A stretch of 64,000 nt of DNA from Herbaspirillum sp. SJZ107. Its GTDB lineage: Bacteria; Pseudomonadota; Gammaproteobacteria; Burkholderiales; Burkholderiaceae_D. The stretch covers positions 558,001-622,000 of the forward strand of contig NZ_VFNH01000003.1 in NCBI RefSeq assembly GCF_006715485.1. The letters run 5' to 3'. Position 1 is the stretch's first letter. Each line of letters opens with the position of its first letter. Below, one piece after another: positions 3,379 to 43,519 of this stretch. The notes under the pieces are model-generated. The model was not told the origin of the DNA. It saw only the letters and a program-made list of their open reading frames with translations, and did no database searches. The translations under genes were made by a program, and so were the position numbers.

Positions 3379-4431
3379 ATGGAACTTATTCCCAGCACCA
3401 TCCTGACCGGCTTCCTCGGCGCCGGCAAAACCACCCTGCTCAACCGCATTCTGCAGGAAGAGCACGGCATGCGGATCGCCGTCATCGAAAACGAATTTGG
3501 CCAGGAAAACATCGACAACGAGATCCTGGTACAGGATGCGAGCGAACAGATCGTCGAGATGAACAACGGCTGCATCTGCTGCACCGTGCGCGGCGACCTG
3601 ATCGTGGCGCTGACCAACCTGGCGCGCAAGCGCGACGCCGGCGAAATCCAGTTCGACCGCGTGGTCATCGAGACCACCGGCCTGGCTAATCCCGGCCCGG
3701 TGGCCCAGACCTTCTTCGTGGACGAGGAAGTCGGTGCCCACTACCTGCTCGACGCGGTCGTGACCGTGGTCGACGCGCGCCATGCGATGGACCAGCTGGA
3801 CCGCCAGGAAGAAGCGCAGCGCCAGGTCGGGTTTGCCGACAAGATCCTGCTGTCCAAGACCGACCTGGTCGATGCCGCCGCACTGGATGCGCTGAAGGCA
3901 CGCATTCGCCGCATCAATCCGCGTGCGCCGATCAGCGTGTCGGATTTTGGCCGCGCCCCGATCAGCGAGGTGCTCGACCTGCGCGGCTTCAACCTGAACG
4001 ACAAGCTGGAACTCGATCCGGCCTTCCTGACGGCCGACGAAGCGCACGACCATGATCATCATGAGCATGACCACGATCACGTGCACACCGAGGCATGCGA
4101 CCACAGCCACGATCACCACCACGGCCATCACGCCGACGACATCGCGGCCTTCGTGTTCAAGAGCGAGCGCGCCTTCGATCCCGAGCGTCTGGATCAATTC
4201 CTTGGCAGCATGGTCCAAGTCTTCGGCCCGAATATGCTGCGCTACAAAGGTGTGCTGTCGATGGCTGGCGCGGACCGCAAGGTGGTATTCCAAGGCGTGC
4301 ATCAAATCATGGGCAGCGACCTCGGTGCAAAGTGGTCGGATGATGAGGCCCGTGGCAGCAAGATGGTGTTTATTGGTAAAAATTTACCAAAAGATGTGTT
4401 TATCCGCGGACTGGAACAGTGTTTGGTATAA
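3379..4431 (+). CDS. COG0523 / CobW-family metal-handling GTPase
   Basis: A 350-residue P-loop GTPase of the COG0523 family, which includes metallochaperones for zinc, cobalt or nitrile hydratase. Visible motifs are Walker A GFLGAGKT (11-18), the metal-binding CICC (65-68) and the guanine-specificity motif SKTD (159-162). The CobW C-terminal domain follows about residue 255. Between the domains, 223-251 is a metal-binding loop with 15 histidines in 29 residues. The next gene is dksA, whose product here lacks most zinc-finger cysteines; pairing of COG0523 proteins with zinc-independent DksA is known in zinc homeostasis. The metal and client are not determined by the sequence. Confidence 0.9.
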   Translation: MELIPSTILTGFLGAGKTTLLNRILQEEHGMRIAVIENEFGQENIDNEILVQDASEQIVEMNNGCICCTVRGDLIVALTNLARKRDAGEIQFDRVVIETTGLANPGPVAQTFFVDEEVGAHYLLDAVVTVVDARHAMDQLDRQEEAQRQVGFADKILLSKTDLVDAAALDALKARIRRINPRAPISVSDFGRAPISEVLDLRGFNLNDKLELDPAFLTADEAHDHDHHEHDHDHVHTEACDHSHDHHHGHHADDIAAFVFKSERAFDPERLDQFLGSMVQVFGPNMLRYKGVLSMAGADRKVVFQGVHQIMGSDLGAKWSDDEARGSKMVFIGKNLPKDVFIRGLEQCLV

Positions 4432-39163: not shown

Positions 39164-40183
39164 TCAGCGCGGCTCGACCACGCAGCAATCGAGGCCGTCG
39201 CGGTGCGTGAAGCTGAAGCGCACCGGCAGGAACAGCTCGATCACCTGGGCGTTGGTGCGCGCATGCAGCGAAGCCTGGTCTACCGTGAAGCCGCCGCCGC
39301 CCGCCAGTGCCAGCGGCAGCATCAGCTGGTCGCCCAGGTATTCGGCGACGGCGGCGCCGCTGGCGATATAGCGGCGCGCCTGGCCGACCGCCTGGCGCGC
39401 GACGTTTTCCGCGGTGACCGACTTTTCGCCGAAGGTGGTGAAGACTTCGGTCACGTGCTCGTACTCGAGGGTCAGCATCAGCGCATTGCCCGGCCCCTGC
39501 TCGTCGGGCAGGCGGCGCGCAAACAGCTGGTCGTCACCCCAGTTCATGCCCTGGCCGACGCACTCGAGTTCGCGCTGGGCGACGCGTGCCGGGATGCCGG
39601 CCGTGAAGCTCTCGACATACCCCTGCCTGCGCTCGCCGCGCGTCATCCATTCGCGCGGCGCCAGTCGGGCACACGGCTGGACCGTGGCGACCACTTCGCC
39701 GCCGCCGGCCGGATAGAAGCCGAAGCGCGCCAGCTGCAGGTCGATCTGCGCGCCCATCTCGGCCATGCGCGGGCACCAGGCGCGCTGCAGGAACTGCACC
39801 GGCGGCGCCATCGGGTTGTGGGTGCCGCCGCACACGCGCAGCGTCGACGGCGCCTCGGCATGCAGGAGCGCCGGCAGCACTGTCTGCAGCACCAGCGTGC
39901 AGCTGCCGGCGCTGCCGATCGCGAAGCGGTAGTCGCCGCCGCGCAGCGTGCCCGGAATGAATTCCAGGTCCTGGCTGCCGAGGCTTGCCCCGCTCACGTC
40001 GGCGCCGCAGACCTGGGCGGCGGCCTGCACCGCCACCAGGTGCTGGCGCATCAGGCCCGGCTTGCTGCGGTTGGCGCGGATGCGCTTGATGCGGAACGGC
40101 TGACCGGTGATCATGGCCAGCGTCAGCGACGTGCGCAGGATCTGGCCGCCGCCCTCGCCCAATGCGCCATCCAGTTCGATCAT
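39164..40183 (-). CDS. rtcA: RNA 3'-terminal phosphate cyclase RtcA
   Basis: A 339-residue enzyme that converts RNA 3'-phosphate ends to 2',3'-cyclic phosphates with ATP. The start MIELDGALGEGGGQILRTSL is diagnostic, as are RGGDYRFAIGSAGSCTLVLQ and GFYPAGGGEVVA. The nucleotidyl-accepting histidine is His307 (ASLHARTN), matching His309 of E. coli. The ATG at 40183 has AAAGGAG at seven-base spacing; the ATG six bases upstream is too close to it. It follows rtcB by 11 bases. Confidence 0.97.
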   Translation of the reverse strand: MIELDGALGEGGGQILRTSLTLAMITGQPFRIKRIRANRSKPGLMRQHLVAVQAAAQVCGADVSGASLGSQDLEFIPGTLRGGDYRFAIGSAGSCTLVLQTVLPALLHAEAPSTLRVCGGTHNPMAPPVQFLQRAWCPRMAEMGAQIDLQLARFGFYPAGGGEVVATVQPCARLAPREWMTRGERRQGYVESFTAGIPARVAQRELECVGQGMNWGDDQLFARRLPDEQGPGNALMLTLEYEHVTEVFTTFGEKSVTAENVARQAVGQARRYIASGAAVAEYLGDQLMLPLALAGGGGFTVDQASLHARTNAQVIELFLPVRFSFTHRDGLDCCVVEPR

Positions 40184-40194
40184 CCCCATCTCCT

Positions 40195-41442
40195 TTACCC
40201 CTTCACGCATACGATCTGCTTGAGCGTATGCACCACTTCGACCAGGTCGCTCTGCGCCTGCATCACGGCGTCGATGTCCTTGTAGGCCATCGGGATCTCG
40301 TCGATCACGGCGGCATCCTTGCGGCATTCGACGCCCTCGGTGGCGCGTACCTGGTCCTCGACCGAGTAGCGGCGCTTGGCCTCGGTGCGGCTCATCGTGC
40401 GCCCGGCGCCGTGGCTGCAGCTGTGGAAGCTGTCCGGATTGCCCTTGCCGCGCACAATATAACTCTTCGCGCCCATCGAGCCCGGAATGATGCCCAGCTC
40501 GCCTGCACGCGCCGACACCGCGCCCTTGCGCGTGACCAGCACTTCCTGGCCGAAGTGCTGCTCCTTCTGGACGTAGTTGTGGTGGCAGTTCACCGCTTCC
40601 AGGTGCGTCTCGAACGGTTTATGAATCACCGTGCGCACGGCCGCGATCAGGTTGCGCATCATGACTTCGCGGTTCATGCGCGCGAACTTCTGCGCCCAGC
40701 CGACCGCCTCGACGTAGTCGTCGTAGTGCTGCGTACCCTCCTTCAGGTAGGCCAGGTCCTTGTCGGGCAGGTTGGCGATGTGGGTACGCATGTCCTGCTT
40801 GGCCACCTCGATGAAATGGCTGCCGATCGCATTGCCGACGCCGCGCGAGCCCGAGTGCAGCATGAACCAGACGAAGCCTTCTTCATCGAGGCAGATCTCG
40901 ATGAAGTGGTTGCCGGTGCCGAGCGTGCCGAGGTGCTTGTAGTTATTCGTGTTCTTCAGCTTCGGGGTCTTCTGGCAGATGACGTCGAATTCGTCCTTCA
41001 GCGCCATCCAGGCCGTGTCGACCGCCTGCGGCGGCGTGTCCCACGAACCTTTGTCGCGGCCTTTGAAGCCACGCGTCTTGGGCGACATCCCGTGCGGCAC
41101 CGAGCGCTCGATCGCGCTGCGCAGCGGTCCCAGGTTGTCCGGCAGGTCGCGTGCAGCGAGCGTGGTCTTGGCCGCCATCATGCCGCAGCCGATGTCGACG
41201 CCGACCGCGGCCGGGATTACCGCGCCCAGGGTCGGGATCACGCTGCCGATGGTCGATCCTTTGCCCAGGTGGACGTCGGGCATGGCCGCCATGTGCTTGT
41301 AGATGAAGGGCATGCGCGCGGTGTTCGCCAGCTGCTGTTTGGCTTCTTCTTCGACCGGGACGCCGCGGGTCCACATCTTGACCGGGCGGCCGCCGGCCAC
41401 CTCGAGGGTATCGTAGTGCTGGTCTTTGTATGCTTGGTTCAT
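40195..41442 (-). CDS. rtcB: RNA-splicing ligase RtcB
   Basis: A 415-residue GTP-dependent ligase that seals 2',3'-cyclic phosphate and 5'-OH RNA ends during RNA repair. Metal and catalytic residues are visible: D83 and C86 in GVDIGCGM, the His motif NCHHNYVQKEQHFG, and the GMP-accepting histidine in FHSCSHGAGR. The C-terminus VCVKG is typical. The ATG at 41442 gives the normal N-terminus MNQAYK; an upstream in-frame start lacks family support. It is the second gene of the operon begun at 41690. Confidence 0.98.
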   Translation of the reverse strand: MNQAYKDQHYDTLEVAGGRPVKMWTRGVPVEEEAKQQLANTARMPFIYKHMAAMPDVHLGKGSTIGSVIPTLGAVIPAAVGVDIGCGMMAAKTTLAARDLPDNLGPLRSAIERSVPHGMSPKTRGFKGRDKGSWDTPPQAVDTAWMALKDEFDVICQKTPKLKNTNNYKHLGTLGTGNHFIEICLDEEGFVWFMLHSGSRGVGNAIGSHFIEVAKQDMRTHIANLPDKDLAYLKEGTQHYDDYVEAVGWAQKFARMNREVMMRNLIAAVRTVIHKPFETHLEAVNCHHNYVQKEQHFGQEVLVTRKGAVSARAGELGIIPGSMGAKSYIVRGKGNPDSFHSCSHGAGRTMSRTEAKRRYSVEDQVRATEGVECRKDAAVIDEIPMAYKDIDAVMQAQSDLVEVVHTLKQIVCVKG

Positions 41443-41483: not shown

Positions 41484-41690
41484 TTATTCGGTATCGGCCA
41501 GCGTGGTCAGCAGGTTGCGCCAGATGCGCCGTGCCTGCCAGGCCGGGATTGCGCCGGCGTCGTCGAACACCTTGATGCGGGCCGGTACGCCTTGTACGTC
41601 GATGCTGACCGACACGACCTGGTCGCCTGTCTGTGCGTTTTTTTGTTGCGTTGCGCTGCCGGCCCTGCCGACGCTGATAATCCAGCCCAT
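41484..41690 (-). CDS. Small protein leading the rtcBA operon
   Basis: A 68-residue protein of unknown function, starting MGWIISVGRAGSATQQ and ending WRNLLTTLADTE. It has a strong ribosome site (GAGGGAGAGCGATC) and lies between the sigma-54 promoter and rtcB, so it should be the first cistron of the RNA-repair operon. I see no catalytic motif; SVSIDVQGVPARIKVFDDAG may form a small beta sheet followed by a helix. A longer overlapping frame on the same strand (41507-41818) would start upstream of the promoter and is less likely. Confidence 0.65.
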   Translation of the reverse strand: MGWIISVGRAGSATQQKNAQTGDQVVSVSIDVQGVPARIKVFDDAGAIPAWQARRIWRNLLTTLADTE

Positions 41691-41740: not shown

Positions 41741-41757
41741 TTGCAAGCGGCGTGCCA
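41741..41757 (-). promoter_or_regulatory. Sigma-54 promoter of the rtc operon
   Basis: Read on the minus strand the site is TGGCAC, five bases, TTGCAA. This matches the sigma-54 -24/-12 consensus TGGCAC-N5-TTGCA fully. It is placed about 50 bases upstream of the first cistron (start 41690). The divergent gene encodes RtcR, a sigma-54 activator that controls rtcBA in other bacteria. Confidence 0.9.
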
Positions 41758-41842
41758 GCGCCTGGACGGCAGCCGGTGGGAACGCCAAGTGCTTGATTGG
41801 CAAGCAAAAATGTTTCACGAGGGTTGACAGGGACGATCTTGG

Positions 41843-41857
41843 ATTCCAATATGGAAT
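41843..41857. repeat. Minor inverted repeat between rtc operon and rtcR
   Basis: ATTCCA and TGGAAT are separated by ATA. It lies about 90 bases upstream of the sigma-54 promoter with respect to rtcBA, next to a longer repeat at 41866. It may be a second activator half-site pair. Confidence 0.4.
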
Positions 41858-41865
41858 ATTCAGAA

Positions 41866-41883
41866 TTTATACGACCGTATAAA
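41866..41883. promoter_or_regulatory. Candidate RtcR-binding upstream activator sequence
   Basis: TTTATACG and CGTATAAA form a perfect 8-bp inverted repeat around AC. It lies about 110 bases upstream of the sigma-54 promoter, the normal distance for an enhancer, and 10 bases before the rtcR ATG, so it could also control rtcR itself. A further TTTATAAA follows directly. Confidence 0.65.
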
Positions 41884-41893
41884 CCTTTATAAA

Positions 41894-43519
41894 ATGAAGA
41901 ACAAGAAAATCGTCGTGATCGGTTTCGTCGGGACCCAGCTCGACAGCGGCAAGGGCAGCGCGCGCTGGGAAAAGTGGCGGCCGTCCGTCGCCCTCACCCA
42001 GCATGAGGATGTGGTCATCGACCGTTTCGAACTGCTGTGCAATCGCGGCTACGAGGGGCTGGTGCGGCAGGTGATCGAGGATATGGGGGCGGTGTCGCCG
42101 GAAACCCAGGTGGTGCCGCACACGCTGGCGCTGGACGACCCCTGGGATTTCGAGCAGGTCTACAGTGCGCTGTTCGATTTTGCCAGGGACTACCCCTTCG
42201 ATCCCGAGCGCGAGGAATACTGGGTCCACATCACTACCGGCACCCACGTGGTCCAGATCTGCATGTTCCTGATGACCGAGGCGAATTATTTTCCCGGGCG
42301 CCTGCTGCAGACCTCGCCCCCGCGCCGCCATGCGCCCGGCGCGCCGGGTTCGTTTGCGCTGATCGACCTCGATCTGTCGAAGTACGACCAGATCGCGCAG
42401 CGCTTTTCGCACGAGCAGCAGGAAGGCGTGGCTTTCCTGAAATCGGGCATCGCGACCCGCAATCCTCGCTTCAACGCGATGATCGACGAGATCGATCGGG
42501 TGGCGATCAAGTCGCGCGCGCCGATGCTGCTGATGGGTCCCACCGGTGCCGGCAAGTCCTTCCTGGCGCGGCGCCTGTATGAATTGAAGAAGGCGCGGCG
42601 CCAGCTCGACGGCAGGTTCGTCGAGATCAACTGCGCCACCCTGCACGGCGACGGGGCGGCGTCGACGCTGTTCGGCCACGTCAAGGGCGCTTTCACGGGC
42701 GCGGCCAGCGAGCGCGCCGGCCTGCTGCGCAGTGCCGGCAAGGGCCTGCTGTTCCTGGACGAGATCGGCGAACTGGGCCTGGACGAGCAGGCCATGCTGC
42801 TCAAGGCGATCGAGGAAAAGCGCTTCCTGCCGGTCGGCGCCGACCATGAGGTGCACAGCGATTTCCAGCTGATCGCCGGCACCAACCGCGACCTGGCGCG
42901 CGAAGTCGCGCGCGGGCGCTTCCGCGACGACCTGTTCGCGCGCATCAACCTGTGGACCTACGAATTGCCCGGACTGGCCGAGCGCCGCGAAGACATCGAG
43001 CCGAACATCGATTACCTGCTGCGCGCGTTCGGCGCCGAGCATGGGCAGATGGTCCGTTTCAACAAGGAGGCGCGCGACCGCTACATGCGCTTCGCCATGT
43101 CGGCACAGGCGCGCTGGAGCGGCAACTTCCGTGACCTGTCGGCTTCGGTGACGCGCATGGCCACGCTGGCCGAGGTCGGGCGCATCACCGGCGAGATCGT
43201 CGATGCCGAAGCGCTGCGCCTGGCGCGCCTGTGGCAGCCGGCCGTTGCCGGACCGGCGGACGGCTTGCAGGCCGGGGACGGCGATGCGGTCGATCTGGAT
43301 ACGCTGCTGGGCGAGGCCGCGGCGGCGCAGCTCGACCGCTTCGATGCGCTGCAGCTGCAGGCGGTGGTGCGCGTGTGCCGCGCATCGAAGTCGCTGTCGG
43401 AGGCGGGACGCAGCCTGTTCGCCGTCTCGCGCGAGGCCAAGCGCCAGCCGAACGATGCCGACCGGCTCAAGAAATACCTGGCCAGGTTCGGGCTGGCGTG
43501 GGACGCGCTGCACGCCTGA
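41894..43519 (+). CDS. rtcR: Sigma-54-dependent regulator RtcR
   Basis: A 541-residue activator of the RNA-repair operon. The N-terminal domain (about 1-180) is the RtcR/CARF-type sensor, which in this family responds to RNA ends or cyclic phosphates and represses the ATPase until bound. The AAA+ domain follows with Walker A GPTGAGKS (215-222), the sigma-54 contact loop GAFTGA (265-270) and Walker B LLFLDE (285-290). The C-terminus (about 455-541) should hold the DNA-binding helix-turn-helix. It diverges from its likely target operon. Confidence 0.96.
   Translation: MKNKKIVVIGFVGTQLDSGKGSARWEKWRPSVALTQHEDVVIDRFELLCNRGYEGLVRQVIEDMGAVSPETQVVPHTLALDDPWDFEQVYSALFDFARDYPFDPEREEYWVHITTGTHVVQICMFLMTEANYFPGRLLQTSPPRRHAPGAPGSFALIDLDLSKYDQIAQRFSHEQQEGVAFLKSGIATRNPRFNAMIDEIDRVAIKSRAPMLLMGPTGAGKSFLARRLYELKKARRQLDGRFVEINCATLHGDGAASTLFGHVKGAFTGAASERAGLLRSAGKGLLFLDEIGELGLDEQAMLLKAIEEKRFLPVGADHEVHSDFQLIAGTNRDLAREVARGRFRDDLFARINLWTYELPGLAERREDIEPNIDYLLRAFGAEHGQMVRFNKEARDRYMRFAMSAQARWSGNFRDLSASVTRMATLAEVGRITGEIVDAEALRLARLWQPAVAGPADGLQAGDGDAVDLDTLLGEAAAAQLDRFDALQLQAVVRVCRASKSLSEAGRSLFAVSREAKRQPNDADRLKKYLARFGLAWDALHA

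Follow-up and report, generated by a model that had tools for sequence, protein, structure and literature searches.

The intergenic stretch between rtcR and the rtc operon of Herbaspirillum sp. SJZ107 is best read as the sigma-54 control unit of an RNA-repair operon, in which a palindrome cluster overlapping the start of rtcR is the predicted enhancer for RtcR. A probability of roughly 0.87 is assigned to this reading, and its direct basis is the sites themselves, together with the way they are conserved, spaced and tied to RtcR. The window referred to here is the whole stretch of 64,000 nucleotides that was analysed, and positions without a contig label are counted from its first letter. The features of the locus are as follows.

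39164..40183, minus strand: rtcA, RNA 3'-phosphate cyclase (PF01137, TIGR03399; start codon placed by eye)
40195..41442, minus strand: rtcB, RNA ligase (PF01139; start placed by eye from relatives, open frame to 41469)
41484..41690, minus strand: 68-codon ORF, first in the rtc operon (no match in Pfam or NCBIfam)
41741..41757, minus strand: predicted sigma-54 (-24/-12) promoter TGGCACGCCGCTTGCAA of the small ORF-rtcB-rtcA operon (consensus match)
41786..41798, minus strand: predicted IHF site AATCAAGCACTTG, between promoter and enhancer (consensus match)
41866..41883, unstranded: perfect palindrome TTTATACG-AC-CGTATAAA, predicted RtcR dimer site (core TTATA-N6-TATAA at 41867-41882)
41886..41891, plus strand: predicted third RtcR half-site TTTATA, which repeats the first half-site directly at a distance of 20 bp
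41894..43519, plus strand: rtcR, sigma-54 activator with an RtcR-type CARF domain (NF038308, PF06956, PF00158)

rtcR is divergent from rtcB and rtcA, the layout of an RtcR-controlled rtc operon, and 203 bases separate it from the operon. The preliminary description had reported a full-consensus sigma-54 promoter, which was borne out: TGGCAC-GCCGC-TTGCAA at 41757..41741 on the minus strand matches all 12 of 12 fixed positions with 0 mismatches, including the GG at -24 and the GC at -12 of TGGCAC-N5-TTGCA, and is the sole exact match in the window. With up to 2 mismatches allowed, 4 matches were found in the window against 5.7 expected. Promoter activity is predicted from this sequence; rpoN was found in the window's genome (6.7 Mb), and the promoter keeps 12/12 fixed positions in all 35 loci of the Massilia group defined below. 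Its assignment to the rtc operon stood as well, with the correction that the first gene downstream is the 68-codon ORF and not rtcB. Of 62 congeneric genomes, 12 have a relative of this ORF, always no more than about 300 bases from rtcB, and 11 of the 12 have rtcR as well. The earlier claim that the control region was complete held for promoter and repeat; the IHF consensus and the third half-site had been overlooked.

The perfect inverted repeat that had been described was recovered at 41866-41883 with 0 mismatches, and its distance from the promoter, given before as about 110 bases, measured 108. The palindrome ends ten bases before the rtcR ATG, the third half-site two bases before it. Even when up to 3 mismatches are tolerated, the palindrome has no second match in the window, where 0.01 would be expected for this sequence. 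Of 3000 shuffles of the 203 intergenic bases, 36 contained a perfect palindrome with 8-base arms and a spacer of 0-4, and the window holds 20 such palindrome rows, nested ones included, where ten shuffles of its sequence gave 9-27; a further AT-rich example, TTGGTAAAAATTTACCAA, lies at 4373-4390. By itself the palindrome is weak evidence, only mildly unusual and not significant, so the comparison with relatives carries the weight.

For this comparison, genomes carrying rtcR were counted in four overlapping sets: 27 of 101 among relatives, 40 of 399 in the order, 12 of 369 in the class and 22 of 62 in the genus. At least 80 named loci were taken from a contig database, and E. coli K-12 was added. 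After removal of duplicates (L064, L065, L066, L068, L070, L072, L080 and L104), 135 upstream regions were compared, the named ones being those among the matches listed. One duplicate pair was kept (L111 = L030); both lack the loose pattern given below, both are unlabelled for operator class, and neither is in the Massilia group. This group of 35 loci consists of the 22 congeners and 13 named loci, among the matches listed, from Massilia, Duganella, Janthinobacterium, Undibacterium and Herbaspirillum.

Within the Massilia group, 34 of 35 loci contain the core TTATM-N6-KATAA (mean 0.07 and maximum 1 in 40 shuffles), and the third half-site TTAT followed 3-5 bases after the core in 34 of 35 (shuffles 0), counts that include part of the loci from which the motif was derived. 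The pattern had been read from earlier loci, and all 13 named loci fetched afterwards carry both core and third half-site. The lone exception, L018, reads ATATACATAGAGATAA and then TTTATA. Among non-redundant loci the TTAT third half-site was found in 29/29, partly by construction of the search pattern; outside that pattern, an A stands two bases upstream of the core in 28/29. Alignment of intergenic regions from relatives, the check proposed in the preliminary description, therefore kept the repeat's core and third half-site in 34/35 loci, but the predicted conservation of TTTATACG-N2-CGTATAAA failed: as a literal unit it occurs in only 2 of the 35, the window and its nearest relative, L002, and the inner CG/CG of the 18-mer is peculiar to these two. 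Judged from the alignments, the conserved unit is the shorter core plus the third half-site and not the exact 18-mer.

A looser pattern, YTAK-N8-MTAR within 120 bases of the rtcR start, was found in 99 of 127 loci, a count that takes in the Massilia group (99/126 without the duplicate), compared with a mean of 8.3 and a maximum of 14 in 50 shuffles. The 127 are those of the 135 kept after L037, L045, L056, L059, L084, L101, L108 and L129 were set aside for an unreadable promoter region or a doubtful start. Carriers of the loose pattern include loci from Planctomycetota and Sorangium.

Within the genus, the three-half-site motif was found in 21 of 62 genomes: in 20 of the 22 with rtcR, where it always stands immediately ahead of that gene, and in 1 of the 40 that lack rtcR (G033). 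The reversed pattern gave 11 scattered matches in the same 62 genomes. The strict pattern missed two rtcR genomes (G035 and G039). The single match in a genome without rtcR is TTATCGTTGGATATAAAAATTTTATC, at G033:C1:292075-292100. rtcB itself is present in 50 of the 62 congeners, 28 of which have it without rtcR. In the 10 of these 28 whose rtcB loci were inspected, the core was absent from the 1400 bases upstream of rtcB (10/10), and a 12/12 sigma-54 promoter was seen in one (G058, L150). This locus keeps the promoter intact, lacks the core and has a truncated rtcR of 66 codons; this single case is what an operator tied to RtcR would predict. In at least three loci (L152, L155 and L156), rtcB adjoins what by eye is the gene next after rtcR in the window, which would fit a joint loss of regulator, operator and promoter. 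A conserved dyad upstream of the promoter and linked to the activator is expected of a sigma-54 enhancer, and such a dyad was found here, as a predicted site for RtcR.

Separately, two congeners (L175-L178; G055:C20 and G012:C1) have rtcB interrupted at nearly the same point (codons 183-192, GTLGTGNHF), by inserts of roughly 28 and 35 kb. The G055 insert carries an 825-aa ORF without a Pfam match at one end and, towards the other, a gene for HAD_SAK_2 (RNA-repair HAD), and short inverted repeats were noted by eye at its ends.

The palindrome could instead be the operator of another regulator of rtcR, or a recombinase site, with RtcR binding at some other place between the two genes. One mismatch separates the rtc palindrome from another, ATTATACGTCCGTATAAA, which lies in the window's own genome at G000:C1:103620-103637 (L144), before an ORF that by eye resembles a serine recombinase, and could be taken to favour this. 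It was rejected as an RtcR site, as it lacks the third half-site and no sigma-54-like sequence was seen by eye in 351 bases. At up to 3 mismatches the 18-mer was found at 2 places in the genome, compared with 6 for the reversed pattern (both strands each), so loose matches to the 18-mer carry no meaning; the three-half-site motif occurs once in this genome. Another regulator or a recombinase is improbable given that the motif tracks rtcR across the genus, that its half-site type co-varies with residues of RtcR, and that its spacing to the IHF site and sigma-54 promoter is kept.

The spacing was followed through the IHF site. WATCAANNNNTTR, which we take to be the IHF consensus, has a match between the predicted upstream site and the promoter, the arrangement of an IHF-assisted enhancer, and IHF binding there is predicted; ihfA, the IHF alpha gene, is present in the window's genome. 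The consensus was found in 25/35 loci (shuffle mean 0.85, maximum 3). From the palindrome centre to the GG at -24, the distance is 118-122 in 26 loci, 107-108 in 3, 96 in 2, 84-85 in 2 and 64 in 2. A looser IHF pattern, present in 32/35 loci, placed the IHF-palindrome distances in clusters near 49.5, 60, 71 and 82 and the IHF-promoter distances near 14.5, 25 and 37, so that the steps are near 11 bases. For IHF-palindrome, the best period was 10.95 (p 0.013, from four cluster means), and the corresponding p values were 0.068 for promoter-palindrome and 0.16 for IHF-promoter, with the period fitted between 10 and 12 and the cluster means chosen by hand. These mixed values fit DNA looping with a face-of-helix constraint, short of proof.

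The same promoter and IHF spacing points to DNA as the level at which the palindrome acts, and argues against its working as RNA, in a leader hairpin controlling translation or stability of rtcR. Folding of 41855-41910 gave -5.7 kcal/mol (z -2.89; 3 of 200 shuffles as good), which is expected of such a palindrome. In the relatives, the fifth mirrored pair is non-Watson-Crick in 9 of 34 loci (2 A/G, 7 C/T). Watson-Crick pairing at the three innermost positions is kept in 44, 35 and 18 percent of the 34, the outer four pairs being fixed by the search pattern. With pairing so poorly kept, two protein half-sites fit better than a stem; the third half-site falls outside the stem altogether. A hairpin role is therefore very improbable.

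The proposal that RtcR would also bind at its own start region agrees with the position of the predicted site, whose core starts 27-34 bases upstream of the rtcR start codon in the 35 loci. In the window, the third half-site occupies the Shine-Dalgarno position, a few bases before the ATG. SD-like tetramers were found before rtcR in 4 of 35 Massilia-group loci and 11 of 100 others, counted before rtcR only. Since the site overlaps the rtcR start region, autorepression by bound RtcR is plausible. The same elements might also be nothing other than a sigma-70 promoter of rtcR, with no enhancer role. In many relatives the bases preceding the core read as an extended -10-like sequence (TGnTAAATT), although they could alternatively be a fourth half-site, GATAA, and the only match of a promoter pattern scan sits over the palindrome (1 found, 0.2 expected). 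By eye, a further sigma-70 candidate for rtcR is TTGACA at 41824-41829, with a poor -10, CAATAT, at 17 bases. Two-fold symmetry, a third half-site and coupling to the IHF site, the sigma-54 promoter and RtcR residues are foreign to promoters, which makes a promoter function alone highly unlikely; promoter and enhancer roles can coexist at the site.

The protein expected to bind the cluster is a full-length RtcR. It matches NF038308 over residues 4-540 with 821.4 bits (cut-off 650), with PF06956 at residues 4-185, PF00158 at 187-354 and a GAFTGA motif readable in the translation. Its C-terminal domain (43265-43516, residues 458-541) gave no convincing match in Pfam with 42 diverse members (best E 0.0012, to a TPR family) or among PDB sequences (best E 0.16). 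A model of residues 458-541 has helices at 501-510 and 521-531 with a loop between them (mean pLDDT 76.6, below 50 at 513-515). Foldseek returned no match to this model at E 0.001, and the best VIA score was Z 3.7, to DNA-bound Zur. Fold comparison thus gave nothing usable, and a new fold is not implied.

In many Burkholderiales (Variovorax, Acidovorax, Cupriavidus and others), CTAG-N8-CTAG stands at the operator position. Of 80 loci labelled by operator type, length and redundancy filters left 57 non-redundant ones, 37 GATAA-type and 20 CTAG-type; RtcR columns were compared between these two classes, which were set after inspection of the data. By excess information, columns 517 (0.845) and 515 (0.820) ranked at the top of 527, and residue 227, outside the DNA-binding domain, was a close third (0.815); 518 ranked 7 and 514 ranked 21. 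Residues 514-518 form the loop preceding the predicted recognition helix 521-531, in a part of the model that is poor at 513-515. When operator class was set against residue 517 in 134 loci, 94 were labelled (74 of them in the tree) and 40, including E. coli, were unlabelled. V517 was found in 29/29 loci with GCTA-type operators and was absent in 60/65 with GATA-type operators; the five with V517 and a GATA-type label are L090, L128, L131, L134 and L143.

On a tree built without the C-terminal domain, operator type and residue 517 need 4 changes each. Two loci that combine GCTA with V517, L136 (Pyrinomonadaceae) and L125 (Chthoniobacteraceae), sit apart from the Burkholderiales clade on weakly resolved branches. 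A paired test of operator against residue 517 found 2 well supported independent pairs (same direction mean 1.4, opposite 0) and was not significant. The co-variation, as traced on these sequences, is largely one Burkholderiales clade against the rest, and shared ancestry explains part of the signal. Together with the 34/35 conservation of the core, the co-occurrence with rtcR and the uniqueness of the motif in the genome, it supports the earlier suggestion that the repeat is a candidate RtcR enhancer.

In the mechanism proposed for this enhancer, RtcR would bind the three half-sites (TTATA-N6-TATAA plus TTTATA), a cluster ending two bases before its own start codon, and IHF would bend the DNA between enhancer and promoter. 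RNA ends with 2',3'-cyclic phosphate would bind the CARF domain and cause RtcR to oligomerise. The oligomer would then remodel sigma-54 polymerase about 110 bases away, turning on the small ORF, rtcB and rtcA, and bound RtcR would probably also lower its own synthesis. Binding of RtcR at this place, looping and autorepression are steps that we infer. A more specific version is tentative, and somewhat more likely to fail than to hold: the operator would comprise three, perhaps four, half-sites in helical register, serving both as enhancer and as an autorepressor site that replaces the ribosome-binding sequence, and bacteria would have switched between GATA and GCTA specificity on more than one occasion, the determinant being residue 517 (and 515), ahead of the recognition helix.

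Activation through an upstream activating sequence (UAS), the RNA signal, oligomerisation and an IHF site are carried over by analogy from work on E. coli and Salmonella. According to the available part of one report, E. coli RtcR acts with sigma-54 from a UAS upstream of rtcBA (PMC5175333), and the accessible text of another describes an in vitro test promoter with UAS and IHF site (PMC9650030). The window shares with E. coli rtcBA, so far as these excerpts describe it, the divergent rtcR/rtcBA arrangement, a full sigma-54 promoter, a UAS and an IHF site (PMC5175333, PMC9650030), and differs in the small ORF ahead of rtcB. In E. coli K-12, the loose pattern is matched by TTATAAGGATATCTAA, which ends one base before the rtcR ATG, at a distance of 127 from the -24 element. 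This site has less symmetry and is not caught by the strict patterns, whereas the Massilia group has a clear palindrome and third half-site. Cyclic-phosphate RNA is given as the RtcR signal in the portions available of two papers (PMC9879122, PMC7790460). In the excerpt of the report with the test promoter, tRNA fragments failed to activate full-length E. coli RtcR in vitro (PMC9650030), so the signal step is tentative.

Control by RtcR and sigma-54 is likewise shared with the Salmonella rsr-yrlBA-rtcBA operon, as far as the available excerpts go (PMC4987338, PMC9879122, PMC7790460). Unlike in Salmonella, no rsr was seen at the head of the window's operon; an rsr-like start was noted there by eye in L003 and L008. 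An Rfam search of L001 at the gathering threshold gave no match. In 6 of 8 loci searched, a low-scoring (30-45 bits) tRNA-like RNA lies just behind the sigma-54 promoter in the operon direction: L030, L036, L038, L043, L044 (about 1089-1183, minus) and L050 (3406-3470, plus). These RNAs are perhaps, on our assumption, Y RNAs of the YrlA type.

Earlier treatments of RtcR sites were compared from the parts of the sources that were available. Table 1 of a 2016 review gives the RtcR enhancer sequence as NK, meaning not known (PMC4987338), the SigmoID paper proposes an RtcR profile for Pectobacterium (PMC4888284), and a P. aeruginosa TF-SELEX atlas assigns a function to RtcR targets (PMC8041468). 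A literature search, mainly of freely accessible papers, returned no title on the RtcR operator of the Massilia group among the matches listed. Taken from these comparisons, the predicted RtcR enhancer is well conserved and ordinary in kind, and half-sites, their spacing and candidate specificity residues can now be named for it.

RtcR is the CARF-domain switch through which damage to RNA leads to expression of RNA-repair genes. Given a consensus that specifies half-sites, rules for their spacing and candidate specificity residues, the site can be tested directly and RtcR targets can be predicted in other genomes, and the autoregulation of rtcR becomes a concrete question.
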